Below are positions 1-64,000 of a DNA stretch of 64,000 nucleotides, one piece after another. The stretch lies in IMG/VR virus record IMGVR_UViG_3300036795_000116, positions 1-64,000 of that record, one strand, 5' to 3'. The position numbers and the translations under genes are program-made. The first letter of the stretch is position 1. The number at the start of each line of letters is the position of its first letter. A model generated the notes under the pieces. The model saw only the letters and a list, made by a program, of their open reading frames with translations, ran no database searches and had not been told where the DNA came from. This DNA is from a virus.

Positions 1-212
1 GGCTGGTCGAGAATGCATTCGTCCGGGTCATCGACGAGTCCAGCAACACCGAACTCGCTCGATACGACCTCACCGAGGACACCAACGCCGGGGTCAACTC
101 GCTGGTGTTCGGCAAGCTCTACCGGCGCGATCAGTCCTGGAATTTCCGGGCCATCGGTGACGGGTTCAAAGACGAGCTGCAAGGGCTCGTGACCGCCTAC
201 CACATCGGCTGA
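1..212 (+). CDS. terD: TerD-family protein, C-terminal part (cut by window edge)
   Basis: An open frame enters from the left edge and stops at 210-212. Its visible ~69 residues contain FVRVIDESSNTELARYDL, then LVFGKLYRRDQSWNFRAIG and a final LQGLVTAYHIG. This is the recognisable end of the TerD/TerE/CABP1 fold of the tellurite and stress resistance family, calcium-binding proteins of cytosolic ter complexes. The next two genes are also ter-type, which supports the call. The N-terminus is outside the window. Confidence 0.8.
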   Translation, partial: LVENAFVRVIDESSNTELARYDLTEDTNAGVNSLVFGKLYRRDQSWNFRAIGDGFKDELQGLVTAYHIG

Positions 213-250
213 CCCACACATCCGCATCCAACCTTAGAGAGGTAACTCCC

Positions 251-1039
251 ATGAGCCTGTTCAGTCGCAAAACCGCCCCCGGTCCAGCGAACCCATCTCC
301 CGGTCCAGCACGGACCATCCGCCTGACCAAGGACTCCACGGGCAGCTCCGCGATCAACCTCTCGAAGGTCCGCGACGCCGGCCACATCGACCTCGCCAAG
401 CGCGCTGACAAGGCGGGCATCGCTCTGAGCAAGCGGGGCCTCGCCGGGATCCGCGCGCAGGCCGTGCTGGTGCTCGATCACTCTGGGTCGATGCACGACG
501 ACTACGCCAACGGCAAGGTCCAGACCATGGTGGAGCGGGTGCTCGGGTTCGCTCTGCAGATCGACGTCGACGGTACCGTCCCGGTGATCCCGTTCGACTC
601 GCGCGTCCACCCCGCCGTCGAGGTGACCGTCGACAACTACAGCGGCGTCGTCGACCAACGGATCTGGCACCCGCGTCAGATGGGCACCACCGACCTGGCG
701 GCGGCCCTCGTCGCGGTCCGGGAACTGGCGAAGACCACCGACGAGCCGATCTTCTGCGTGGTCGTCACCGACGGAAACCCCGACTCGCAGGCCGCCTCGA
801 CCAAGACCGTGTGCGAGCTGGCCGGCTACCCAGTCTTCCTGAAGTTCCTCGCTATCCGCGACGTGCCCTACCTCAACCTGCTCAACAACATGGGCGCCGA
901 CCAGCGGCTGCTCGACAACGTCAACACGAAGGCCTTCAACGACCCGGCCTCCGTGTCCGACATGGAGTTCGCTGACGCCATGGCCGACGAGTGGGACTCC
1001 TGGGTCGCCGCCGCGACGAAGGCCGGGGTGCTGACGTGA
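251..1039 (+). CDS. vWA-domain protein of the TerF/TerY type
   Basis: A 262-aa protein. A low-complexity N-terminus is followed by an INLSK segment and a von Willebrand factor A domain beginning about residue 70. The MIDAS motif DHSGSM near residue 76 and the VPVIPFDS and VVTDGNP strands are clear. TerF/TerY-like vWA proteins accompany TerD and TerC in bacterial ter clusters and are thought to act as metal-dependent assembly factors. ATG 251 follows an AGAGAGGTAA ribosome-binding stretch. The stop overlaps the GTG of the next gene, suggesting translational coupling. Role in the phage is unknown. Confidence 0.82.
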   Translation: MSLFSRKTAPGPANPSPGPARTIRLTKDSTGSSAINLSKVRDAGHIDLAKRADKAGIALSKRGLAGIRAQAVLVLDHSGSMHDDYANGKVQTMVERVLGFALQIDVDGTVPVIPFDSRVHPAVEVTVDNYSGVVDQRIWHPRQMGTTDLAAALVAVRELAKTTDEPIFCVVVTDGNPDSQAASTKTVCELAGYPVFLKFLAIRDVPYLNLLNNMGADQRLLDNVNTKAFNDPASVSDMEFADAMADEWDSWVAAATKAGVLT

Positions 1040-3295: not shown

Positions 3296-3368
3296 AGCGG
3301 GTTGGCGCAGTTGGTAGCGCGCTGGGCTCATAACCCAGAGGTCATCAGTTCGAGTCTGATACCCGCCA
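3296..3368 (+). tRNA. tRNA-Met (CAT), initiator-like features
   Basis: Cloverleaf with D-stem GCGC/GCGC, anticodon stem CTGGG/CCCAG, loop CTCATAA (anticodon CAT) and T-arm ATCAG-TTCGAGT-CTGAT. The acceptor pairs at six of seven positions, with an A1.C72 mismatch. The GGG/CCC base pairs in the anticodon stem and the unpaired 1-72 position are hallmarks of initiator tRNA, although the classical mismatch is C1.A72. CCA is not encoded. Confidence 0.88.
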
Positions 3369-3374
3369 CGACGA

Positions 3375-3446
3375 CCTCGGATAGCTCAGCGGCAGAGCAA
3401 CCCCGTCCTAAGGGGAAGCGCGCAGGTTCGAGTCCTGTTTCGAGGG
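3375..3446 (+). tRNA. tRNA-Arg (CCT)
   Basis: Acceptor CCTCGGA/TTCGAGG with one G.U, D-stem GCTC/GAGC, loop GTCCTAA giving anticodon CCT (codon AGG), T-arm GCAGG-TTCGAGT-CCTGT, discriminator G. The outermost anticodon pair is A.A. Follows tRNA-Met by six bases, probably in the same transcript. Confidence 0.85.
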
Positions 3447-4131: not shown

Positions 4132-4496
4132 CCACCATGCTGAACGTGCTGGAGAAGCGCGCCCACCTCGCCTCGCTGGCCATCGACGTCGAGGGTGTCA
4201 CGACTACCGCGCTGGGCAAGCTCGAAGCCTGCGGCAGCTCCCGGCAGATCCATGACTACTTCGTGGAGCAGAAGATCCAGGGCCGTCGGGGGCGGGCGTA
4301 CGCGTGTCCGATCGCGCAGTTCGTGAACGACGCTCTCGGGGTCGCGGACTATCAGGTTACCTGCGCCGACACGCTGGTAGTGGCCATCCCGCTGCGTGCC
4401 GTTCGAGTGCCGACCCCGCCCGCCGTGGCGGATTTCATCCGGGACTTCGACGGGGGAAGCTACCCAGATCTGGTCGACCCACTCTTCGGTCCGTGA
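4128..4496 (+). CDS. Paralogue family A, member 3
   Basis: A 122-aa protein starting at ATG 4128 (ATGA overlap). It keeps the family order: helix ending in LEACGSSRQIHDYFVEQKIQG, the YACPIAQFV motif, and an ending FIRDFDGGSYPDL. The N-terminus is more divergent than in members 1 and 2. Probably translated from the same message. Function unknown. Confidence 0.75.
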   Translation: MTTMLNVLEKRAHLASLAIDVEGVTTTALGKLEACGSSRQIHDYFVEQKIQGRRGRAYACPIAQFVNDALGVADYQVTCADTLVVAIPLRAVRVPTPPAVADFIRDFDGGSYPDLVDPLFGP

Positions 4497-6167: not shown

Positions 6168-6216
6168 TGTGTAGTGCACTTGACACAGTGCGTCGTAGGT
6201 GCAAGACTTGCAAGAG
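6168..6216 (+). promoter_or_regulatory. Repeated promoter-like element, copy 1
   Basis: TGTGTAGTGC (6168-6177), TTGACA (6180-6185) and TTGCAAGAG (6208-6216) occur with identical spacing at 11372-11420. TTGACA is a perfect -35; the matching -10 (AAGACT at 17-bp spacing) is weak. It sits between a terminator and the next gene, as a promoter should. TTGCAAGAG would be near or just after the transcript start. Confidence 0.55.
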
Positions 6217-7800: not shown

Positions 7801-7955
7801 CCAACCCAGAAGAGCGAGAAGCCCTCAAAGATCGTTTGACGTTCGTCTCCGACGACGAACTCTTTGAGATCTTGTCCTCGGTGATCGACGCGGACATCGA
7901 CGAGGTCAACCAGTTGATCGAAGACCTGCGCGACGAGATCACCACGCAGCATTGA
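7797..7955 (+). CDS. Hypothetical acidic 52-aa protein
   Basis: GTG 7797 overlaps the preceding TGA. A short, very acidic helical protein (FVSDDELFEILSSVIDADIDEVNQ). It has no counterpart among the longer predicted frames but fits the chain of overlapping genes. Function unknown. Confidence 0.5.
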   Translation: MTNPEEREALKDRLTFVSDDELFEILSSVIDADIDEVNQLIEDLRDEITTQH

Positions 7956-11209: not shown

Positions 11210-11282
11210 TGGAGTCGGCGTGACTCGAACACGCCACCTTCTGCCTGCCGAGCAGATGCTCTACCTGATGAGCTACGACCCC
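11210..11282 (-). tRNA. tRNA-Ala (GGC), C33 variant
   Basis: Acceptor GGGGTCG/CGACTCC contains G3.U70, the alanine identity pair. D-stem GCTC/GAGC, anticodon stem TCTGC/GCAGA, loop TCGGCAG, T-arm GCGTG-TTCGAGT-CACGC, discriminator A. Position 33 is C instead of the near-universal U, which may affect decoding. CCA is not encoded. Confidence 0.8.
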
Positions 11283-11286
11283 GTGG

Positions 11287-11356
11287 TGGACCTGACGGGG
11301 ATGGGACCCCGCGACCTCCGGCTGAAACCCGGTGCTCTGCCCTGAGCTACAGGCCC
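11287..11356 (-). tRNA. tRNA-Glu (TTC)-like, atypical T-arm
   Basis: Acceptor GGGCCTG/CAGGTCC with one G.U, D-stem GCTC/GAGC, anticodon arm CCGG-GTTTCAG-CCGG giving TTC. The T-arm (GCGGGG...CCCCGT) has loop TCCCAT rather than the usual seven-base TTCRANY. Only 70 nt. Possibly a decaying or divergent tRNA. Confidence 0.6.
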
Positions 11357-11371
11357 GGCATCAGCGTAGCA

Positions 11372-11420
11372 TGTGTAGTGCCCTTGACACAGTGGGTTAG
11401 TCATGCGACAGTTGCAAGAG
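11372..11420 (+). promoter_or_regulatory. Repeated promoter-like element, copy 2
   Basis: TGTGTAGTGC (11372-11381), TTGACA (11384-11389) and TTGCAAGAG (11412-11420) recur at the same spacing as 6168-6216. The candidate -10 (GACAGT, 17 bp) is weak. The element precedes the 11454-12509 genes, so the ATG at 11403 would lie within the promoter and is rejected as a start. Confidence 0.55.
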
Positions 11421-11453
11421 TCAAGCAACTCCCACTACAGAAACCGAGCGATC

Positions 11454-11870
11454 ATGACCACCACAGCCCCAGCCCCGACCAAGACCTTCTACCCCATTGC
11501 CATCGCCCTCGTGGCCGTCGCCATCGCCACCATGGCCGTCGTCGCGGTCTACCTGGGCCAGCACACCCCCACCCCGGCGGCCCCGGCCAGCTCCACAGCG
11601 GGCCTCCGAACGTGTGATTCGAGTGTCGCCGTCGCCTACCCGGCCTTGGATGGTGGCGTGCAGGTACACGTGCTCGCCCCAGGACCGGACGTGGTCCGCG
11701 TGGGCATCATCGCCGGCCCCATGGCCTACGAGCGCGTGCTGCAACAGCAGGTGACCAAGAACGGTGCCGGAGCTGATTTCAGCTGGGTACACGCGCACGG
11801 CGTCTCCGCGATCACCGTGAGCACGAAGAAGCTCGGTATCTGCGCGATCCCCGCCCCCGCAACCCGGTGA
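11454..11870 (+). CDS. Membrane-anchored hypothetical protein
   Basis: 138 aa from ATG 11454. One N-terminal TM helix (residues about 13-33), a Pro/Thr linker, then an extracytoplasmic domain with two cysteines (RTCDSS near the start, LGICAIP at the end) that could form a disulfide. Function unknown. First gene after the second promoter-like element. Confidence 0.6.
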   Translation: MTTTAPAPTKTFYPIAIALVAVAIATMAVVAVYLGQHTPTPAAPASSTAGLRTCDSSVAVAYPALDGGVQVHVLAPGPDVVRVGIIAGPMAYERVLQQQVTKNGAGADFSWVHAHGVSAITVSTKKLGICAIPAPATR

Positions 11871-12184
11871 GTGGTTTCTGGATCAGCCCGACGGAAGAGC
11901 CGGTGCTGAAGACCTACACCGTGTTCGGACTGATCCACAACGGACAACAGCACTTGACCATCGCGGGCGTCGCCAAGGGCAAGATCGAGCACGAGGATAT
12001 GGCGTACATCAGCGAGTACGGGTACCTGCGATTCTCCACCACGGTCGAGGCACGCAACCCGTCCCACGCGGAAGACCTCGCACACAAACTCGTGCGCGAG
12101 ACGTTCGCCAAGACCCCGCCCGAGCGGCGAAAGTACCTGGCCTGGCACATGATCGGAAGGCAGGCAAATGCTGACCCCCAGTAA
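11867..12184 (+). CDS. Hypothetical protein
   Basis: 105 aa from GTG 11867 (GTGA overlap). A beta-rich start (KTYTVFGLIHNGQQHLTIAGV) and a helical end with ETFAKTPPERRKYLAWHMIG. No domain recognised. Overlaps the following gene by 17 bases. Confidence 0.6.
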   Translation: MSGFWISPTEEPVLKTYTVFGLIHNGQQHLTIAGVAKGKIEHEDMAYISEYGYLRFSTTVEARNPSHAEDLAHKLVRETFAKTPPERRKYLAWHMIGRQANADPQ

Positions 12185-12509
12185 GAGGCAGCAGCTCCTC
12201 GATGACGTCGACGACGCCCGCTACGAGCTGAAGGTCTACAAGATCAAGCGCAATCTGCTGATCGTCGGGATCGTGTTCTCTTTCTTCTGGACGATGGGCG
12301 ACATCACCTTCGGGGTGTTCTCCACCGTGACCGCCACGTTCAACCACTCTGACCTGGGCGGTCTCGTCGCCGGGCTGCTGCTGTTGGGGGTCTTCGGCGT
12401 CATTGGCACCAGCGCCGGGTTGGCCAACGTAATCGGGCAGAACGCGGGCAACAAGCTCAGGAAGAAGATTCGCAAAGCCGAGCGCCAGCTGCACCAGGAC
12501 GCATGGTAA
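12168..12509 (+). CDS. Membrane protein, two TM helices
   Basis: 113 aa, ATG 12168 after GGAAGGCA. A charged N-terminal helix, TM segments near residues 29-50 and 64-90, and a basic C-terminus (KLRKKIRKAERQ). Unknown role. Nothing clear is visible between its end and the WhiB gene apart from an AT-richer stretch near 12530. Confidence 0.6.
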   Translation: MLTPSKRQQLLDDVDDARYELKVYKIKRNLLIVGIVFSFFWTMGDITFGVFSTVTATFNHSDLGGLVAGLLLLGVFGVIGTSAGLANVIGQNAGNKLRKKIRKAERQLHQDAW

Positions 12510-12577
12510 CCAAACCAAGTTGCTAGTCGTTTACATATAGCGCACACTTGTGCACCGAATCAGAGAGGAAGTTCGTG

Positions 12578-12871
12578 ATGTCCCCGCACTACACCGGCCA
12601 TTGGAGGGAGTGGGTCGCCTGCTCCAACGAGGATCCGGAACTGTTCTTCCCGATCGCTGGCCGTGGCACCCCAGCCTACGCCGAGCAGGTCACCGAGGCC
12701 AAGTTCGTCTGCTCGTTCTGCCCCGTGCGCGAGCAGTGCCTGGAGTTCGCCCTGGAGCGCATCCAGACCGGGGTGGCCGGCGGCCTCGACGAGTACGAGC
12801 GGGCCGCTCTGCGCAAGGCTAGGGGGCAAGAAGCGCATCTCCCCAGTGAGCGCGTCCTGTCCACCCGATGA
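12578..12871 (+). CDS. whiB: WhiB-like iron-sulfur transcription regulator
   Basis: 97 aa from ATG 12578, with AGAGAGGAA 8 nt upstream (GTG 12575 is an alternative). Four cysteines (VAC near residue 14, VCSFC, EQC) make the [4Fe-4S] site, with DPELFFP and CPVREQCLEFAL typical of Wbl proteins. The turn usually reading G(V/I)WGG is GVAGG here, lacking its tryptophan. Wbl proteins bind sigma factor region 4, and phage WhiB proteins can modulate host transcription. Monocistronic-looking. Confidence 0.88.
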   Translation: MSPHYTGHWREWVACSNEDPELFFPIAGRGTPAYAEQVTEAKFVCSFCPVREQCLEFALERIQTGVAGGLDEYERAALRKARGQEAHLPSERVLSTR

Positions 12872-12909
12872 CCCACTTACTGGAAGATCTTTAAAGGGAG
12901 GTTGCACGC

Positions 12910-13236
12910 GTGTCACCCACATATGGTGGTAGCGGCCACACTTCTGAGACGCTACTGTCAGCGACGCCCAAATCCGAGGGAGCCCAGACCACTGCCGACG
13001 CGGACTTCATGTACGTAACCAGTCCGCGAGAGGCCCATGGTCGACGCACGCTATTACTACACGCCTGTCAGCTACCGGGACATCACCCGGTTCTACTACG
13101 TCAAATGCCGTACCGAGCTGCATCTACGGCGGCTCCGTCGTCGTGGGATCGAGAACAGAAGTGCCCCGGTTGTGGTGTCGACGCTCCCGCCGGTGCCGGT
13201 GCTCCCCCTCACACCAAGCATTGTCACTGGAAGTAG
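12910..13236 (+). CDS. Hypothetical protein with C-terminal zinc-ribbon-like end
   Basis: GTG 12910 lies 8 nt after AAAGGGAGG. The N-terminal two thirds are low complexity. The last 30 residues, EQKCPGCGVDAP...HTKHCHWK, look like a Cys/His zinc site. An overlapping frame from ATG 13037 (ending 13252) starts with a protein-like YYYTPVSYRDITRFYYVKC segment, so the true product may use both frames. Frame uncertain. Confidence 0.4.
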   Translation: MSPTYGGSGHTSETLLSATPKSEGAQTTADADFMYVTSPREAHGRRTLLLHACQLPGHHPVLLRQMPYRAASTAAPSSWDREQKCPGCGVDAPAGAGAPPHTKHCHWK

Positions 13237-13258
13237 TAGACACCGCCCCTGAAGTGTG

Positions 13259-13308
13259 GGGTGGCGGGCACGGGGCTTAACACGAACGCGCTGGCCCACC
13301 CGCCACCC
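13259..13308 (-). terminator. Inverted repeat after tRNA cluster
   Basis: A perfect 10-bp repeat, GGGTGGCGGG (13259-13268) with CCCGCCACCC (13299-13308), 30-nt loop, immediately downstream of the last minus-strand tRNA. No U-tract; likely an RNA end or processing stem. Confidence 0.45.
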
Positions 13309-13310
13309 TG

Positions 13311-13381
13311 CTCCCCGCCCAGGACTCGAACCTAGATAACCGACTCCAAAGGCCGGCATGCTACCATTGCATCACCGGGGA
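13311..13381 (-). tRNA. tRNA-Gln (TTG)
   Basis: T1-A72 acceptor TCCCCGG/GCGGGGA (7-66 G.G mismatch), D-stem ATGC/GCAT, anticodon loop CTTTGGA (TTG, codon CAA), T-arm CTAGG-TTCGAGT-CCTGG, discriminator G. U1-A72 and G73 fit glutamine. Confidence 0.85.
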
Positions 13382-13385
13382 CTGG

Positions 13386-13458
13386 CTGCCTCGCCAGGAT
13401 TCGAACCTGAAATTCCGCGTCCAGAGCGCGACGTAGTTGCCAGTTACACCACGAGGCA
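13386..13458 (-). tRNA. tRNA-Gln (CTG)
   Basis: Perfect acceptor TGCCTCG/CGAGGCA, anticodon stem TCGCG/CGCGG with loop CTCTGGA (CTG, codon CAG), T-arm TCAGG-TTCGAAT-CCTGG, discriminator G. Four bases from the other glutamine tRNA. Confidence 0.87.
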
Positions 13459-13469
13459 AAGAGTGTGCG

Positions 13470-13543
13470 TGCCCTAGGTGCGATTCGAACGCACGCCTGT
13501 ACGGAGTTTGAGTCCGTTACCTCTACCGTTGGGTTACTAGGGC
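13470..13543 (-). tRNA. tRNA-Leu (CAA), short variable arm
   Basis: Acceptor GCCCTAG/CTAGGGC, anticodon stem ACGGA/TCCGT, loop CTCAAAC (CAA, codon TTG), T-arm GTGCG-TTCGAAT-CGCAC, discriminator A. At 74 nt the class II extra arm is missing, as seen in some phage leucine tRNAs. Confidence 0.83.
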
Positions 13544-13549
13544 CTAACG

Positions 13550-13622
13550 TGCACCTACCAGGAGTCGAACCTGGTGCTCGAAGTTCGTAGCCTCGCGTGG
13601 TAATCCGGTCCACTATAGGTGC
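13550..13622 (-). tRNA. tRNA-Arg (ACG)
   Basis: Acceptor GCACCTA/TAGGTGC, D-stem GTGG/CCAC, loop CTACGAA (ACG, codons CGT/CGC after deamination), T-arm CCAGG-TTCGACT-CCTGG, discriminator A. Confidence 0.88.
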
Positions 13623-13626
13623 TCGG

Positions 13627-13699
13627 TCGTCGGGGCTGGACTTGAACCAGCAACCCCCGGCTCTTCAGACCAGTGCTCTCCCAGTTGAGCTACCCGACG
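13627..13699 (-). tRNA. tRNA-Phe (GAA)
   Basis: Acceptor CGTCGGG/CCCGACG, D-stem GCTC/GAGC, loop CTGAAGA (GAA), T-arm GCTGG-TTCAAGT-CCAGC, discriminator A. Confidence 0.88.
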
Positions 13700-13711
13700 A
13701 TTGTCCGAATG

Positions 13712-13792
13712 TCCTAACCTAGCACTGAGGTAACGCTGTTAGGATAGGTACGCCCCAGACCCTGGCGACCTTTGAACGTCAGGGCCTGGGGC
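13712..13792 (-). terminator. Two inverted repeats between tRNAs and secreted-protein gene
   Basis: TCCTAAC/GTTAGGA (13712-13718, 13738-13744), and a larger stem gccccag...ctggggc (13752-13792) with internal ccctg/caggg. The second lies just beyond the minus-strand stop at 13803 and could end that transcript. No U-tract. Confidence 0.45.
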
Positions 13793-13802
13793 ACCCCTTC
13801 AC

Positions 13803-14108
13803 CTAGTAGTCACGTCGCCCGTCGTGACGGTCATACCGGTCGTGCCTGTTGTACCGGTCGTGCCTGTCATGCCGACCGTACTTGTTGTGCCGATCGTGGC
13901 GGCTGTACCGGTCGTACCGATCGTGGCGGCTGTACCGGTCGTGGCGGTCATCACCACGCCAACCGCCCGCCTTCACCAGGGCAACTGGCGCAACCGCGCT
14001 GGTCACCATGGTCGGCGCACTGGGTGCTGCGTTAGCCACCCCGCTGCTTCCCCCCACGAGCAGCGCCGTGCTGAGCAGCCCGGCTGTCAGCAACTTCGTG
14101 ATTATCAT
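13803..14108 (-). CDS. Secreted Arg/His/Asp/Tyr repeat protein
   Basis: 101 aa from ATG 14108, with GAAGGGAG upstream. The longer frame to 14282 runs through a tRNA and is rejected. Signal peptide to ANAAPS (about residue 29). The last ~50 residues are repeats of DRHDRY/SRHDRY type. Its composition parallels the His-rich proteins at 2245 and 7952. Probably exported; function unknown. Confidence 0.65.
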   Translation of the reverse strand: MIITKLLTAGLLSTALLVGGSSGVANAAPSAPTMVTSAVAPVALVKAGGWRGDDRHDRYSRHDRYDRYSRHDRHNKYGRHDRHDRYNRHDRYDRHDGRRDY

Positions 14109-14218
14109 CCCTGAACTCCCTTCAGTTGACTGCCAGGGAGCGCCGAAGTTACCTGAGGATCCTGCCAGGTACTGCCGCCAATCAGGGTGACCCCGAATGC
14201 TGGAGTTAGCTCCATTCG

Positions 14219-14288
14219 AGGCACTGGCGGGACTTGCACCCGCGTACACGGTTTTGCAGACCGCGTCGACCAGCTCGGTCACAGCGCC
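14219..14288 (-). tRNA. tRNA-Cys (GCA)
   Basis: Acceptor GGCGCTG/CAGTGCC (one G.U), anticodon stem GCGGT/ACCGT, loop CTGCAAA (GCA), discriminator U, the cysteine identity base. 70 nt. Confidence 0.8.
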
Positions 14289-14297
14289 GTGCGTGCG

Positions 14298-14371
14298 TGC
14301 CCCCTGAGAGATTCGAACTCATCACTGTCAGGTTCCTAAAACCTGTGCCTCTACCGTTGGGCTAAAGGGGC
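14298..14371 (-). tRNA. tRNA-Leu (TAG), short variable arm
   Basis: Acceptor GCCCCTT/AGGGGGC with one U.G, anticodon stem CAGGT/ACCTG, loop TTTAGGA (TAG, codon CTA). The T-stem is imperfect beside a normal TTCGAAT loop. Discriminator A; no long variable arm. Confidence 0.8.
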
Positions 14372-14374
14372 TTG

Positions 14375-14448
14375 CTGGCCAGGTAGGATTCGAACCTACA
14401 ACATCCTCCTTAACAGGGAGGCGCTCTGCCGGATTGAGCTACAAGCCA
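14375..14448 (-). tRNA. tRNA-Asn (GTT)
   Basis: Acceptor TGGCTTG/CTGGCCA with one mismatch and one wobble, anticodon stem CCTCC/GGAGG, loop CTGTTAA (GTT), T-arm GTAGG-TTCGAAT-CCTAC, discriminator G. Confidence 0.85.
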
Positions 14449-14464
14449 ATGTAATTGTTGTGCG

Positions 14465-14537
14465 TGCCGGTAGCTGGAATCGAACCAACCTATCACTGAT
14501 TTACAGTCAGTTGCCTACCCAGTCGAGCCTCACCGGC
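14465..14537 (-). tRNA. tRNA-Tyr (GTA)
   Basis: Acceptor GCCGGTG/TACCGGC, anticodon stem ACTGA/TCAGT, loop CTGTAAA (GTA), T-arm GTTGG-TTCGATT-CCAGC, discriminator A. Bacterial tRNA-Tyr normally has a long variable arm; here it is short. Confidence 0.83.
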
Positions 14538-14541
14538 GGAG

Positions 14542-14626
14542 CGGAAGCTGCAGGGATCGAACCTGCGCGGGTGTCACCCCGACTGCCATTTTCGAGACGG
14601 CTGCCTTACCTCTCGGCCAAGCTTCC
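14542..14626 (-). tRNA. tRNA-Ser (CGA)
   Basis: Class II tRNA, 85 nt: acceptor GGAAGCT/AGCTTCC, anticodon stem GCCGT/ATGGC, loop CTCGAAA (CGA), variable hairpin GGGGT-gac-ACCC, T-loop TTCGATC, discriminator G. Its 5' end overlaps the stop of the upstream minus-strand gene. Confidence 0.87.
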
Positions 14627-15013
14627 CCGTGGTGCGTAACCCGGACACTCCCGAGATTTCGCGTCCGTGAGGATCTTACCGCAGCTGGTGCAGGTGTGGA
14701 CGTGCTTGCAGGAGTAGTACCACTCTCCGTTGCCGACGAACTGACGGAGCCGCTGCCCCTCGACGTGCTCCCAGCGGCCCTTCTGGAACCAGCCGCAGCG
14801 CCAGTGCTGAGGGTAGCGGTCCGCGTCGGGGCGAGCCTGGAAGTGCAGGGCCCACTTGTCTATCTTGAGCGTGGTGACGTGCTCGATCCCGACCTTCCCG
14901 CGGCACCAACGACGCCGGTCCTTGCGGGCACGGTGTACGGGCACCTCGGGAGCCAGGACGCGGGCTTCGTCGAGCTTCGGGCCGGCGTTCCACCCGTCAT
15001 AGCTGTGTCCCAC
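14606..15013 (-). CDS. Hypothetical Cys/His-rich protein inside tRNA cluster
   Basis: 135 aa from GTG 15013, with AAGGAG 7 nt upstream. Trp- and Arg-rich middle (HWRCGWFQKGRWEHVEG), then CKHVHTCTSCGK and a later Cys, a likely zinc-binding end. Its last 21 bases overlap tRNA-Ser. No family recognised. Confidence 0.6.
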   Translation of the reverse strand: MGHSYDGWNAGPKLDEARVLAPEVPVHRARKDRRRWCRGKVGIEHVTTLKIDKWALHFQARPDADRYPQHWRCGWFQKGRWEHVEGQRLRQFVGNGEWYYSCKHVHTCTSCGKILTDAKSRECPGYAPRGSLAER

Positions 15014-15031
15014 GATCTGCTCCTTCCGTTG

Positions 15032-15105
15032 CGGTACCGACGGGACTCGAACCCGCGACCTCCGCCGTGACAGGGCGGCGCTCTAACCAGCTGAGCTACG
15101 ACACC
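15032..15105 (-). tRNA. tRNA-Asp (GTC)
   Basis: Acceptor GGTGTCG/CGGTACC with two wobble pairs, anticodon stem CCGCC/GGCGG, loop CTGTCAC (GTC), T-arm GCGGG-TTCGAGT-CCCGT, discriminator G. Confidence 0.87.
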
Positions 15106-15109
15106 GTGG

Positions 15110-15211
15110 AGCATGCGCCAGGACTCGAACCTGGAACCTCCGGATTTTATACCGGCGCTCTACCGTATCCCCGGGCGTCCCCGGGCGGTGTTCCCCTTGA
15201 GCTACGCACGC
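15110..15211 (-). pseudogene. tRNA-like element with D-arm insertion (possible tRNA pseudogene)
   Basis: The acceptor GCGTGCG/CGCATGC, D-stem halves GCTC/GAGC and T-arm CCAGG-TTCGAGT-CCTGG are intact. The D-loop is ~38 nt and holds two tandem GCCCGGGGA units. The anticodon arm is CCGG with an 8-nt loop TATAAAAT, so no anticodon can be assigned. It sits between tRNA-Asp and tRNA-Pro. Probably a broken tRNA gene. Confidence 0.6.
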
Positions 15212-15213
15212 AG

Positions 15214-15287
15214 TCGGCCATGCTGGAGTCGAACCAGCGGTCTTCTGCTCCCAAAGCAGACGGATTACCAAGCTTTCCCAATGGCCG
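15214..15287 (-). tRNA. tRNA-Pro (TGG)
   Basis: Acceptor CGGCCAT/ATGGCCG with C1-G72, anticodon stem TCTGC/GCAGA, loop TTTGGGA (TGG), T-arm GCTGG-TTCGACT-CCAGC, discriminator A; 1-72 and 73 fit proline. First tRNA of the minus-strand cluster. Confidence 0.85.
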
Positions 15288-18306: not shown

Positions 18307-18670
18307 ACCGCGGTGCCTTTGATCGACGTGGAGTGTTCCGTGTGGGAACACGAGGGTTGGGTACTGCCTGAATCAGGGCGTCGTGGGCGCACTGATACAG
18401 CCGGCAGGGCCACCGAAATTGCTCGACAGCCCCTTGGTGCATGCACCAACCGTGATCGTCGGGAATGTGCTGGTGAAGCATCCAACGGGCCCTGCGCGGG
18501 TCCGCTTTCAGGAACCAGATAACCCCGAGATTGACGGTTTCTACCGGATCGAGGTCGGCCTCAACTGCCGACGGTAGGACGGAGAGAGATAAGGTCCGCA
18601 AAGACCACCTCCTGCGACGTGAGCCCCGAGCAGGTGATGAGTCGAAGTTCCGGACCCGGCGTATTGCCAT
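18299..18670 (-). CDS. Hypothetical Trp/His/Cys-rich protein, start uncertain
   Basis: The frame ends at 18299. A protein-like stretch runs VETVNLGVIWFLKADPRRAR, HQHIPDDHGWC and WPCRLYQCAHDA, similar in feel to small phage zinc proteins. The only upstream in-frame ATG (18670) overlaps the sortase gene by 110 bases; an internal ATG (RWMLHQH) is another choice. An opposite-strand frame at 18383-18577 competes but breaks strand consistency. Confidence 0.4.
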   Translation of the reverse strand: MAIRRVRNFDSSPARGSRRRRWSLRTLSLSVLPSAVEADLDPVETVNLGVIWFLKADPRRARWMLHQHIPDDHGWCMHQGAVEQFRWPCRLYQCAHDALIQAVPNPRVPTRNTPRRSKAPRYG

Positions 18671-19313
18671 AAACGGCCTGTGCTTCTGAGTTGAAGTTCG
18701 CCTTCGGGACCGTGAGATTCTGGGTTACCCGAAAGGTTGCCGTCTGACCGTCGGACCGATCAATTTCCACCACACCACCCACTCCGAGCTGACCCAAATT
18801 CCAGAAGAGCCCGTGGTGACCTTGCTGGTCGACATGAGCCAGCACGACAGCGGGACCCATCGCCCCAGGGACGGGGGAGAAGCGATACCAACCCAGCTCG
18901 CCCACTTTGCTCAGGGGAGGGACTTGCAGGGTGTGATCGGTGTTGCGCCCCACGGGGATGACATCGCGGGACGATACGGCAATGGCTGGGATCCGAATCG
19001 CCGTCGGGACGACAGCTTTCGCTGGAGGGGCGGTCACCGTCGACGAGCGGTCAGATACAAGGGCCGGAGCTGTAGGTGCGGACATTGTCACTGGAACTGG
19101 TGTCCTGGTGACCGTCACCTGCTGGATTACGACACGCGGCGGAGTCGTTGGCTGGGGAACGCTGGTAGAAAGAACAACGCCCGGTGACGTCAGATCTGGA
19201 GGATCCACAGACGCGGGAGCGGGGGTGGCGCTAACCCCTCGAATTAGCGCCACCCCCACTACCACTCCGAGGATCAGGGGGGCAACACACCCCAGTACCC
19301 TCGGCGTCTTCAT
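18561..19313 (-). CDS. Sortase-fold protein (class E/F-like), catalytic Arg not seen
   Basis: 250 aa. Signal-anchor helix at residues 7-27, Pro/Thr-rich stalk to ~100, then a sortase domain: PTAIRIPAIAV, GELGWYRFSPVPGAMGPAVVLAHVD (His about 160), VYGNTPGPELRLITCSG (Cys about 228). In cellular sortases a longer loop with the catalytic Arg follows the Cys; here only SGLTSQE separates it from VVFAD. It could be inactive or differently active. Sortases are rare in phages. ATGA overlap with the upstream gene. Confidence 0.75.
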   Translation of the reverse strand: MKTPRVLGCVAPLILGVVVGVALIRGVSATPAPASVDPPDLTSPGVVLSTSVPQPTTPPRVVIQQVTVTRTPVPVTMSAPTAPALVSDRSSTVTAPPAKAVVPTAIRIPAIAVSSRDVIPVGRNTDHTLQVPPLSKVGELGWYRFSPVPGAMGPAVVLAHVDQQGHHGLFWNLGQLGVGGVVEIDRSDGQTATFRVTQNLTVPKANFNSEAQAVYGNTPGPELRLITCSGLTSQEVVFADLISLRPTVGS

Positions 19314-60086: not shown

Positions 60087-60202
60087 TCGGTGCGGGGAGT
60101 GGCCGGACCCTGCTCCTCGGTAGTGAACAGGGGCCGGCTCACCCTCGGTGCGGGGAGTGGCCGGACCCTGCTCGCTGATAACAAGCAGGGGCCAGCTCAC
60201 CC
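60087..60202. repeat. Two tandem 58-bp repeats with hairpins
   Basis: The first 29 bases of each unit (60087-60115, 60145-60173) are identical; the second halves share CAGGGGCC and GCTCACCC. Each unit can fold as GGCCGGaCCCTG...CAGGGgCC. On the minus strand each repeats a GC-rich hairpin upstream of the 60060 gene. Confidence 0.75.
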
Positions 60203-60617: not shown

Positions 60618-60646
60618 CTTAGGGGGGGATGTGTCACAGTTGATCA

Positions 60647-60746
60647 TCACCCGTTTGGTCGTCACCCACTTGGCCTAGTTCACCCACATGCGAGTTGATC
60701 ATCACCCATATGCGTCACCCGTTTGGCGGTACCCATCACCCGTTTG
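60647..60746 (+). repeat. Six iteron-like repeats TCACCC(G/A)(T/C)(T/A)TG
   Basis: Copies start at 60647, 60662, 60680, 60702, 60715 and 60736: three TCACCCGTTTG, plus TCACCCACTTG, TCACCCACATG and TCACCCATATG. All share orientation, with 13-22 bp start-to-start spacing. Confidence 0.75.
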
Positions 60747-62248: not shown

Positions 62249-62346
62249 TGATCACCGACAGAGAAAATAGGTACATGATCGCGGGCAGTTTCGCCCTGTT
62301 GATCTTGATCTGGGTGATCTTGTTTAGCTTCTGTCCTTGGTACTGA
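62248..62346 (+). CDS. 32-aa single-TM peptide
   Basis: ATG 62248 in TGATG. Charged start (ITDRENRY) then one TM helix (GSFALLILIWVILFSFC). Translationally coupled to the gene before. Ends just before the first two-hairpin repeat. Confidence 0.45.
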   Translation: MITDRENRYMIAGSFALLILIWVILFSFCPWY

Positions 62347-62360
62347 GAGCGCTAGCAGAG

Positions 62361-62404
62361 CGGCTGGTGGTGAGTCCAGCCGTTCGATAGTCCACTCAGG
62401 ACTA
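62361..62404 (+). repeat. Two-hairpin intergenic element, copy 1
   Basis: Hairpin 1 CGGCTGG-tggtgagt-CCAGCCG (62361-62382) and hairpin 2 TAGTCC-actca-GGACTA (62388-62404), 24 nt before ATG 62428. Followed by cgttaggaacgatc. Confidence 0.8.
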
Positions 62405-62427
62405 CCCGCACAACGTTAGGAACGATC

Positions 62428-62646
62428 ATGCCAAGTATCAGCGCTAGCTTGCACGTGTACGCCGGTGACGCGGTTGCGGTGCGCGGCTCGACAGTTGACT
62501 CAGACAGGGTCACGGTGCAAGTCGGTGAATACGGTGAAGTGAGCAGCCATATCTACCTGGATCGAACGTCCGCCGTCCGAATCGCACAAAGCATTCTGGC
62601 GTTCTACGAAATGCCAGGTGGAGTGACCTACAGCGACTCTGAGTGA
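62428..62646 (+). CDS. Hypothetical small beta protein
   Basis: 72 aa, ATG 62428, TTAGGA upstream. VYAGDAVAVRGSTVDSDRVTVQVGEYGEVSSHIYLDRTSAVRIAQSI suggests a small beta sheet and helix. Function unknown. Confidence 0.6.
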   Translation: MPSISASLHVYAGDAVAVRGSTVDSDRVTVQVGEYGEVSSHIYLDRTSAVRIAQSILAFYEMPGGVTYSDSE

Positions 62647-62653
62647 GCTAGTC

Positions 62654-62699
62654 GACCAGCCGGAATGCGAACGGCTGGTCTGTAGTCCACTCAGGACTA
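62654..62699 (+). repeat. Two-hairpin intergenic element, copy 2 (inverted arms)
   Basis: Hairpin 1 has 9-bp arms GACCAGCCG/CGGCTGGTC, i.e. the arm sequences of copies 1 and 3 in swapped order, with a different loop (gaatgcgaa). Hairpin 2 is unchanged (62683-62699). Precedes ATG 62725. Confidence 0.78.
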
Positions 62700-62724
62700 G
62701 CCCCACCAATGAACGGACACGATC

Positions 62725-62961
62725 ATGCTTGAAACGACGCTGGAAACAATCGACGTTCGTGACTTTGCGGTCACGGTATGGATCATGACAGGAGATCTCA
62801 CCGGCGCTCTGATCACCGAGGCGCGTGGTTGGCTAAGCGACTGCTACTGGGACGACATGGAAGCGGACGAAATCGCCGAACTGTCGAGCATCACCGTTCA
62901 GCGCGCGATCGCACAGCACTACGACGGCGGTATCGGCCAGTTCGTATCGGACGGTAGTTGA
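62725..62961 (+). CDS. Hypothetical protein
   Basis: 78 aa, ATG 62725. FAVTVWIMTGDLTGALITEARGWLSDCYWDDMEADEIAELS, mixed alpha/beta, acidic. Overlap-free with the next gene by two bases. Unknown. Confidence 0.6.
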   Translation: MLETTLETIDVRDFAVTVWIMTGDLTGALITEARGWLSDCYWDDMEADEIAELSSITVQRAIAQHYDGGIGQFVSDGS

Positions 62962-62963
62962 TC

Positions 62964-63143
62964 ATGGACCCCGACGCAAACCTCGCCGAGCAACTCGAAA
63001 TCGCACGTGAAATGCAGGACCTAGACGATGTTGACTTGCCGGTTAGTCAGGATGACGCACAACGCCTGGCAGAGCTAGTCATCGCGTTGAACGAATGGCT
63101 AGCCAAGGGTGGTTACCCGCCGAAAGCCTGGCAACGTAACTGA
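62964..63143 (+). CDS. 59-aa acidic helical protein
   Basis: ATG 62964 in ttgatcATG. LAEQLEIAREMQDLDDVDLPVSQDDAQRLAELVIALNEWLAKGGYPPKAW. Shares the transcript with the previous gene; no two-hairpin element between them. Function unknown. Confidence 0.55.
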   Translation: MDPDANLAEQLEIAREMQDLDDVDLPVSQDDAQRLAELVIALNEWLAKGGYPPKAWQRN

Positions 63144-63157
63144 GTGATCTAGCAGAG

Positions 63158-63201
63158 CGGCTGGTGGTGAGTCCAGCCGTTCGATAGTCCACTCAGGACT
63201 A
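63158..63201 (+). repeat. Two-hairpin intergenic element, copy 3
   Basis: Arms identical to copy 1 (63158-63179, 63185-63201), ahead of ATG 63225. The stretch from agcagagcgg to gatcATG is almost identical to copy 1. Confidence 0.8.
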
Positions 63202-63224
63202 ACCGCACAACGTTAGGAACGATC

Positions 63225-63491
63225 ATGCATGTCTCACATGAACTTGACGTCTGCTCTGATTGCCGGCAGCTGATTGCCAACGGAGACATTGAGGACGGTA
63301 CCGATACCGGAGAGCGCGTCGCCGCGGCGCAAGTACAGATTTGGGGTCCACTCGCCTGGCACATGGTGCTGAGTGGGACCGAGGACGAACCGCGATTCAT
63401 GACCTCGGAATGCGACGGTTGCGGCGAGACTGCTCACGGTGATCGGTGGTACGCGTCCATTATCGAGAATGGCGATTCTGTCATCGCCTGA
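63225..63491 (+). CDS. Hypothetical protein with two CxxC motifs
   Basis: 88 aa, ATG 63225. CSDC (about residue 10) and CDGC (about 62) with a His-Gly-Asp-Arg-Trp end imply a zinc-bound fold. Middle is beta-rich. Function unknown. Confidence 0.6.
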   Translation: MHVSHELDVCSDCRQLIANGDIEDGTDTGERVAAAQVQIWGPLAWHMVLSGTEDEPRFMTSECDGCGETAHGDRWYASIIENGDSVIA

Positions 63492-63509
63492 CTGAGAGAG
63501 CTAGCAGAG

Positions 63510-63553
63510 CGGCCGGTGGTGAGTCCGACCGTTCGATAGTCCACTCAGGACTA
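63510..63553 (+). repeat. Two-hairpin intergenic element, copy 4
   Basis: Arms CGGCCGG/CCGACCG (one C.A mismatch) and the invariant hairpin 2, before ATG 63575. Represents an intermediate between copies 1 and 5. Confidence 0.78.
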
Positions 63554-63574
63554 AGCCAACGTAGGGAAACGATC

Positions 63575-63832
63575 ATGCGTAGCGTGGAATTCAAGATCAA
63601 AGGCAACCCGGACACGTACCTGCTACCCGTGGCCGACGATGTCACCGTATACAGCGCGATGACAGAGGTACTGTCGATCATGGGTCACGAGTGGGCGGAC
63701 GTGATGCCCGGTCACGACTTCAAGATCATCGACCCTAGCCCGTGCCAGTTCTGCTCACAAGCTTCGGGCCCCGACGCGTACATGCGTAAACCCATATGTG
63801 CGAGTTGCCTGGCCGCACGTGAGACTGACTGA
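63575..63832 (+). CDS. Hypothetical protein with zinc-ribbon end
   Basis: 85 aa, ATG 63575, GTAGGGAAAC upstream. EFKIKGNPDTYLLPVADDVTVYSAMTEVLSIM, then CQFC and CASC. Similar in plan to the protein at 63225. Unknown. Confidence 0.6.
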   Translation: MRSVEFKIKGNPDTYLLPVADDVTVYSAMTEVLSIMGHEWADVMPGHDFKIIDPSPCQFCSQASGPDAYMRKPICASCLAARETD

Positions 63833-63846
63833 GTGATCTAGCAGAG

Positions 63847-63890
63847 CGGCCGGTGGTGAGTCCGGCCGTTCGATAGTCCACTCAGGACTA
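63847..63890 (+). repeat. Two-hairpin intergenic element, copy 5
   Basis: Arms CGGCCGG/CCGGCCG: a compensatory U-A to C-G change relative to copies 1 and 3. Hairpin 2 at 63874-63890. Precedes ATG 63916. Confidence 0.8.
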
Positions 63891-63915: not shown

Positions 63916-64000
63916 ATGAGTGAGCCGCTCTACACATTCCCTGCACTCACAGAGGCCGACATCACGGCGGTTAAGGGTGCACTCACAACGCTCACGGATT
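63916..64000 (+). CDS. Small protein, cut by window edge
   Basis: ATG 63916 in aaacgatcATG after copy 5 of the intergenic element. The visible 28 residues (SEPLYTFPALTEADITAVKGALTTLTD) show no known motif. Confidence 0.5.
   Translation, partial: MSEPLYTFPALTEADITAVKGALTTLTD

Follow-up and report, generated by a model that had tools for sequence, protein, structure and literature searches.

What is the function of a two-hairpin sequence that recurs between the early genes of a phage, and is it kept as DNA or as RNA? Since 2011, actinophages have been known to carry start-associated repeats, whose mechanism is unsettled; those of cluster K were argued not to be RNA structures. The element described here has a comparable layout, and in this case covariation and the exchange of sequence type at orthologous junctions speak directly for RNA structure.

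Distribution of the element in the early operon

The virus record comprises 69,317 bp, of which the window, i.e. the whole stretch of DNA analysed, covers bases 1-64000. At the right end of the window lies a rightward early operon of small genes, which code among others for a DUF7178 and a DUF3631 protein; relatives of the former bear the annotation DNA glycosylase in some phage records. Small and large terminase genes are located to the left of this operon and run leftward. Exact matches to hairpin 2 (TAGTCCACTCAGGACTA) were found at five places in the window (62388, 62683, 63185, 63537, and 63874), in agreement with the five copies of the preliminary description. No further site was detected in the window even when 3 mismatches were allowed (0.05 expected by chance), and a covariance model of ten copies gave no additional copy elsewhere in it. 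A look past the right edge, as had been suggested, revealed four more exact matches (64479, 65475, 66665, and 67975), one copy with a shortened right arm (67467), and one diverged element. These six elements occupy genome positions 64434-64496, 65430-65492, 66156-66215 (diverged), 66620-66682, 67422-67484, and 67930-67992. In total the record contains ten copies and the diverged one, all of them within the rightward early operon.

All five elements of the window are encoded on the plus strand. Element 1 consists of a strand termed S1 (CTGAGAG, 62343-62349), which contains the UGA stop of an upstream 32-residue ORF, hairpin 1 (62358-62385; 10 bp, loop UGGUGAGU), hairpin 2 (62388-62404; UAGUC-CACUCAG-GACUA), and a landing pad of 23 nt with a Shine-Dalgarno sequence (62405-62427), which reaches the ATG at 62428. 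As the conserved sequence (CTGAG...) starts at 62343, the start at 62361 in the preliminary description was placed too late. Element 2 comprises S1 (CTGAGTG, 62639-62645; upstream stop at 62644-62646), hairpin 1 with swapped arms and the loop GAAUGCGAA (62654-62680), and hairpin 2 (62683-62699; next gene start at 62725). In element 3, S1 (CTGAGTG, 63140-63146) includes the stop codon and is followed by hairpin 1 (63155-63182) and hairpin 2 (63185-63201; next start at 63225). Directly before S1 of element 4 (CTGAGAG, 63492-63498) lies the TGA of the upstream gene; its hairpin 1 (63507-63534) has one C-A mismatch, and its hairpin 2 (63537-63553) precedes a start at 63575. S1 of element 5 (CTGAGTG, 63829-63835) again includes the stop codon, with hairpin 1 at 63844-63871, hairpin 2 at 63874-63890, and the next start at 63916.

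The element is present at almost every gene boundary of the early operon and is restricted to non-overlapping junctions; past the first genes, each of these carries one. Overlapping or touching stop/start gene pairs do not carry it, nor does the first gene of the operon. Junctions with an element have gaps of 76-86 nt; at the diverged copy the gap is 114 nt. In a consensus scan, 0 sigma-70-like promoters were found in the 7.3 kb from 62 to 69.3 kb versus 2.6 expected from shuffled sequences, and no intrinsic terminator (GC-rich hairpin plus U run) was predicted on the coding strand of the operon. At genome positions 68018-68023 (10018-10023 in L010), the start of the DUF3631 gene contains overlapping ATG-TGA and GTG codons (ATGTGAAGG), so that an AUG-stop minimal ORF overlaps the GTG start of this gene.

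Each element begins at the stop codon of the upstream gene and ends shortly before the ribosome site of the next one. The stop TGA corresponds to bases 2-4 of CTGA in 7 of the ten regular copies, to the next TGA four bases on in 2, and to a TGA directly before CTGAG in 1. For nearly all elements, those of relatives included, the upstream stop lies in or within a few nucleotides of S1. The gene upstream of the diverged copy ends 30 nt before it, and a 4-codon ORF (ATG CCC GGA TTC TGA) at genome 66132-66159 (8132-8159 in L010) ends inside its S1. This ORF has an AGGAGG Shine-Dalgarno sequence 7 nt upstream and is the only ORF of such short length with a strong Shine-Dalgarno sequence on the plus strand. 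In two related loci, G014 and G004, there are 6 elements in whose S1 no gene ends; GGAGG directly precedes S1 in 4 of them, some of which are mutually related, and two elements have neither feature. The elements at 6169 in G004 and at 7802 in G014 have no adjacent upstream gene. The stop codon in S1 may reflect compact junctions alone; the exceptions with a short ORF or GGAGG before S1 hint that a ribosome at S1 matters. From the end of hairpin 2 to the start codon, the distance mostly is 20-28 nt and includes a Shine-Dalgarno sequence.

Secondary structure and covariation

Across the ten copies, hairpin 1 shows two-sided changes at 5 of its 10 pairs (7 cells), a level reached by 0 of 500 shuffles and contrasting with 0 in each slid control. 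This bears out the claim that the stem is kept while its sequence changes, and the mismatch in copy 4 as well as the arm swap in copy 2 were seen as described. At pair 18-41, nine copies have G-U, which in DNA would be a mismatch, and one has C-G. Two classes of hairpin 1 loops occur in this phage, UGGUGAGU in 9 copies and GAAUGCGA in 2, with varying stems. The stem of hairpin 2 comprises 4-6 bp across elements, and the sequence of hairpin 1 appears unconstrained. Hairpin 2 had been called invariant, which holds for the five exact matches in the window, but it varies once all copies and relatives are counted.

The two hairpins had been regarded as separate structures. In contrast, in the minimum-energy fold of all ten copies the 5' CTGAGTG pairs with CACTCAG, i.e. 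with the left arm and the loop of hairpin 2. The resulting composite stem of about 20 bp, formed by this outer helix and hairpin 1, has a lower energy than hairpin 1 plus hairpin 2 in 10 out of 10 copies. This third helix between the stop-codon strand and the loop of hairpin 2 was absent from the preliminary description. S1 and hairpin 2 are nearly constant in sequence within this phage, which is expected if the bases serve two helices and on its own does not support them. The S1-loop pairing is imperfect in some copies, three copies of this phage having an A-A mismatch. In the diverged copy, S1 and loop are both changed (TGAATC and GATTCA) and hairpin 2 reads GGGC-GATTCA-GCCC, which is the first independent evidence for the predicted S1-loop helix. 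The S1-loop pairing could form either as a pseudoknot atop hairpin 2 or as an outer stem replacing it.

When the bases covered by a ribosome at the stop codon were blocked in folding, hairpin 2 formed in 10 out of 10 copies. Predicted accessibility of positions -15 to +3 was about equal in the S1-paired and the ribosome-at-stop states. Gating of the Shine-Dalgarno sequence by switching between S1 pairing and hairpin 2 was rejected for this unchanged accessibility. Three other readings were also discarded. A tRNA-like reading suggested by GTTCGA failed because no tRNA was found in the region. Kissing between the loops of hairpin 1 (UGAGU) and hairpin 2 (ACUCA) is absent in copy 2 and in the relatives. 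The right arm of hairpin 2, when free, might form a hairpin through its CTA with TTAG in the Shine-Dalgarno region, but this is not general, being seen in only about half of the copies. A search of Rfam 15 gave no match at gathering threshold except tRNAs elsewhere, and none up to E=5 in the operon.

Related phages and exchange of sequence type

Searching with the DUF3631 protein yielded one related contig (L011, 82% identity), and a terminase search added fourteen more loci with 66-70% identity. Since the covariance model of the ten copies finds few elements in relatives (only two strong ones, in G004, and weak ones in G014), searches for topology were written. The topology scan covered the early regions of eight of the terminase-found records, of L011, and of this phage. 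Elements in relatives share the order S1, hairpin 1, hairpin 2 with an S1-complementary loop, about 22 nt, and start codon. The three-part layout occurred 12 times in sense and 0 times in antisense orientation in this phage; the 12 matches represent ten elements and two weak matches left of the operon, and copy 4 was missed because of the mismatch in its hairpin 1. In G004, 13 sense versus 3 antisense matches were obtained.

Hairpin 2 stems differ widely between elements (TAGTC/GACTA, GGGC/GCCC, CGGG/CCCG, CGGC/GCCG, AGAG/CTCT, and TGAG/CTCA), and each time the loop fits its own S1. Pairs of S1 and loop changing in step are CTGAGTG/CACTCAG, TGAATC/GATTCA, TGAACC/GGTTCA, CGGGTG/CACCCG, CTGATC/GATCAG, and CCTGAGTG/CACTCAGG. 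The exchange is also seen at orthologous genes. Before the DUF7178 gene, TAGTC-CACTCAG-GACTA in this phage corresponds to GGGC-GGTTCA-GCCC in G004 and G014. Upstream of the DUF3631 gene, TAGTC-CACTCAG-GACTA of this phage is replaced by the GGGC-GGTTCA-GCCC type in G014 and by AGAG-TGATCAG-CTCT in G007, G009, and G010, and the same exchange of element type was found in two further gene families. That the layout is kept and the letters are replaced at orthologous genes is our strongest argument for selection of the structure. At gene junctions of several phages we find an element of three helices in which the hairpin loop is complementary to a strand upstream of hairpin 1 and covaries with it. 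Judged from these sequences, hairpin 1, hairpin 2, and the predicted S1-loop helix are all conserved.

Exact hairpin 2 gave no match in IMG/VR, and a search for the hairpin 2 type of L011 gave the L011 record as sole relevant match. The exact type II pattern was found in IMG/VR only in G014 and not in bacterial genomes, where the DUF3631 bait likewise yielded nothing confirmed. Neither the element region nor the last 24 kb of the window gave a nucleotide match among annotated phages. Two features of L011 were noted in passing. Its large terminase (1-650, minus strand) is interrupted by a Hint/intein-like domain (Pfam Hint_2), whereas that of this phage is uninterrupted. Before one gene (4370-4420) it contains a minihelix (CGCGG-TTCGACT-CCGCG, with GCCCCG/CGGGGC as closing stem) that resembles the acceptor stem and T arm of a tRNA but lacks the D and anticodon arms.

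Candidate search blind to S1

Candidates were also picked without regard to S1, the criteria being the two hairpins and, downstream of them, a start codon preceded by a Shine-Dalgarno sequence. In ten early regions this resulted in 64 sense versus 8 antisense candidates. Complementarity of at least 5 nt to the own upstream strand was found for 12 of 41 unique loops, compared to a permuted mean of 3.9 (p=0.0002, without tree correction). The permutation is conservative because related S1 strands also fit one another's loops. Basing the test on called genes instead left fewer junctions and pointed the same way. Among the controls, 58 kb of structural genes from the window gave 3-4 candidates per strand with 0 S1 matches, and the early regions of Caelum, Shagrat, Veracruz, and CaiB gave few candidates, likewise with 0 S1 matches. 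In the cluster K phage Anaya (L083, 30000-60835), hairpin-pair candidates before starts numbered 8 in sense and 0 in antisense; they mostly lack an S1-loop complement, two of the eight having a 5-nt match. In view of these sense-only pairs, the claim that ESAS do not act as RNA is worth rechecking.

Discussion

It seems that the RNA shape itself is under selection. The preliminary description had left open selection on RNA or on a DNA cruciform; G-U pairs such as 18-41 and the sense-only polarity in this phage (12 versus 0) favor the RNA level, and the cruciform was not sustained. From the arrangement of the sequence we propose, with a probability of roughly 45%, that the element is a cis-acting, translation-linked cistron-boundary RNA on the polycistronic early mRNA. 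A ribosome with a stop codon in the A site reaches about 11 nt further. When terminating at the upstream stop, it would cover S1 and the bases as far as the foot of hairpin 1, and would open only the S1-loop helix, leaving hairpin 2 to stand alone; upon its departure the S1-loop helix would re-form. The element would punctuate translation in that post-termination ribosomes would be kept from drifting onward and a fixed landing pad would be preserved, on which the next cistron could be initiated from its own Shine-Dalgarno sequence. Terminating and initiating ribosomes would thereby be kept separate. Gene pairs meant for coupling would be those with overlapping start and stop codons, which carry no element. 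Punctuation is proposed instead of on/off gating because the predicted Shine-Dalgarno accessibility is unchanged.

Structure right after a stop codon has been reviewed as reducing translational coupling (PMC12548453). As in ermC-type attenuators and coupled gene pairs (PMC12548453), the position of the ribosome would choose between pairings upstream of the next start, but, unlike in ermC-type attenuators, the change in pairing leaves predicted Shine-Dalgarno accessibility unaltered. A rather unlikely extension is that the element represents a class of RNA switches reading out ribosome termination, in which S1 would pair with the loop of the hairpin guarding the next cistron and traffic would be sensed at each boundary by shape only, with freely exchangeable sequence. 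No phage intergenic pseudoknot tied to a stop codon was found in a literature search that covered few subscription papers. The long-standing puzzle of the start-associated repeats becomes a set of testable predictions on S1, loop, and stop codon. In addition, the element may offer a compact, sequence-flexible gene separator for synthetic operons.

The RNase III sites between the early genes of T7 resemble the element in being irregular stem-loops that mark most junctions of a polycistronic early transcript. By analogy, the long irregular stem might be cut by an RNase III-like enzyme, or protect newly formed 3'-ends, to yield stable messages of one or two genes. We regard this as unlikely, yet as the main and serious rival: the composite stem of 20 pairs, lying below hairpin 1 plus hairpin 2 in energy in ten copies, is compatible in length with sites of the T7 type, the elements occupy non-overlapping junctions, and neither promoters nor terminators are predicted on the coding strand. 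Processing or stability would, however, leave unexplained the formation of hairpin 2 around an S1-matching loop, the tight link to the stop codon, and the fixed distance to the next start, and sequence conservation within the genome far exceeds the needs of structure alone. We know of no loop-to-stop-codon complement in T7 RNase III sites.

An RNA-binding protein, encoded by phage or host, might recognize the element and thereby repress or activate many early messages, much as in the case of the T4 pseudoknot in the gp32 mRNA, but this is improbable. Conservation of the hairpin 1 loop in two classes on varying stems would suit such a protein in this phage, but among relatives these loops are not conserved, so that recognition would have to be by shape only, and no candidate protein was found.

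Cluster K phages carry the closest known layout. Their SAS is an asymmetric 13-bp sequence (GGGATAGGAGCCC) located 3-7 bp before the start codon and holding the Shine-Dalgarno core, and their ESAS consists of two imperfect inverted repeats of 17 bp that directly precede it. These 13-mers at the ribosome site were described together with ESAS repeats judged not to pair as RNA (PMC3203893), and ESAS were later found to contain SigA-like promoters (PMC11373665). Like SAS/ESAS, the element occurs in many copies of one orientation in the early, non-structural half of the genome, before start codons in larger intergenic gaps, with an inverted repeat upstream of the ribosome site. The resemblance noted earlier therefore stands for the layout, with the differing sequences stated then, but not as membership. 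No conserved 13-mer is seen in the aligned landing pads, whose Shine-Dalgarno sequences, for example GTTAGGAA, are weak and differ from one another. There is no SAS next to the arms, which have 10 bp and 5-6 bp and other sequences, and a consensus scan gave no SigA-like -35/-10 hexamers. Unlike for ESAS arms, RNA pairing is supported here by two-sided changes at five pairs, a level that 0 of 500 shuffles reached, and a stop-codon strand pairs with a hairpin loop.

Inverted repeats of 18 bp and 17 bp are known from Microbacterium phages of cluster EG (PMC7302621) and mycobacteriophages of cluster O (PMC4351075), respectively. They share with the element the form of short dyads in early intergenic regions, the EG copies lying 14-22 bp upstream of starts. 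Unlike the element, they are near-invariant symmetric sites for which no partner strand or second hairpin has been described, and those of cluster O, some of which lie inside genes, were read as protein-binding sites (PMC4351075). The Gordonia phage CaiB (cluster DR, PMC9302106) likewise has repeated leaders with a GCGGG...CCCGC hairpin before the Shine-Dalgarno sequence. They differ by TTGCGC...TATAGT-like hexamers, a ACAACACC/GGTGTTGT dyad, and the lack of S1-loop pairing; from their sequence, the CaiB repeats probably are promoters.

A role at the DNA level, as operator or promoter, is now proposed for ESAS and is likely for the CaiB repeats, but for the element it is very improbable. Palindromic repeats of actinophages often are read as operators (PMC4351075), and hairpin 2 forms a perfect 6-bp dyad nine times. 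Against this, the consensus scan gave no sigma-70-like promoter in 62-69.3 kb, and G-U pairs, sense-only polarity, and a conserved asymmetric loop centre are not expected of an operator. Moreover, the dyad is wholly different between phages and the loop still fits S1.

The phage HK022 has one put site per early operon, from which two-hairpin RNAs promote antitermination. By analogy, RNA-based processive antitermination would agree with a hairpin pair that recurs in the nascent early RNA of an operon containing untranslated gaps, but eleven elements tied to stop and start codons and the lack of predicted coding-strand terminators make it highly improbable here. That a functionless repeat was spread by duplication, as the near-identical copies within the genome might suggest, is hardly credible, being contradicted by the compensatory changes and the exchange of sequence type at orthologous junctions.

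Further features of the genome

Outside the operon, a 58-bp tandem duplication (60087-60202 of the window) lies between the structural genes and the early region, and each of its units can fold into a GGACCCTGCTC...CAGGGGCC stem. At 60638-60746, a sequence of about 20 nt (GTTGATCATCACCCGTTTG-like) stands in three direct copies, which are possible operators or origin iterons, and comparable GATCA repeats occur near 3300-3420 in L011. At least 16 tRNA genes are located at 11210-15287 (minus strand, 14 in a cluster) and 3296-3446 (plus strand). A sortase-domain protein (Pfam PF04203) is encoded at 18564-19313 on the minus strand. Adjacent genes for TerF-like vWA and TerC/DUF475 proteins, as in tellurite-resistance/stress loci, were found at 251-2133 on the plus strand, with similar DNA in Gordonia phages.
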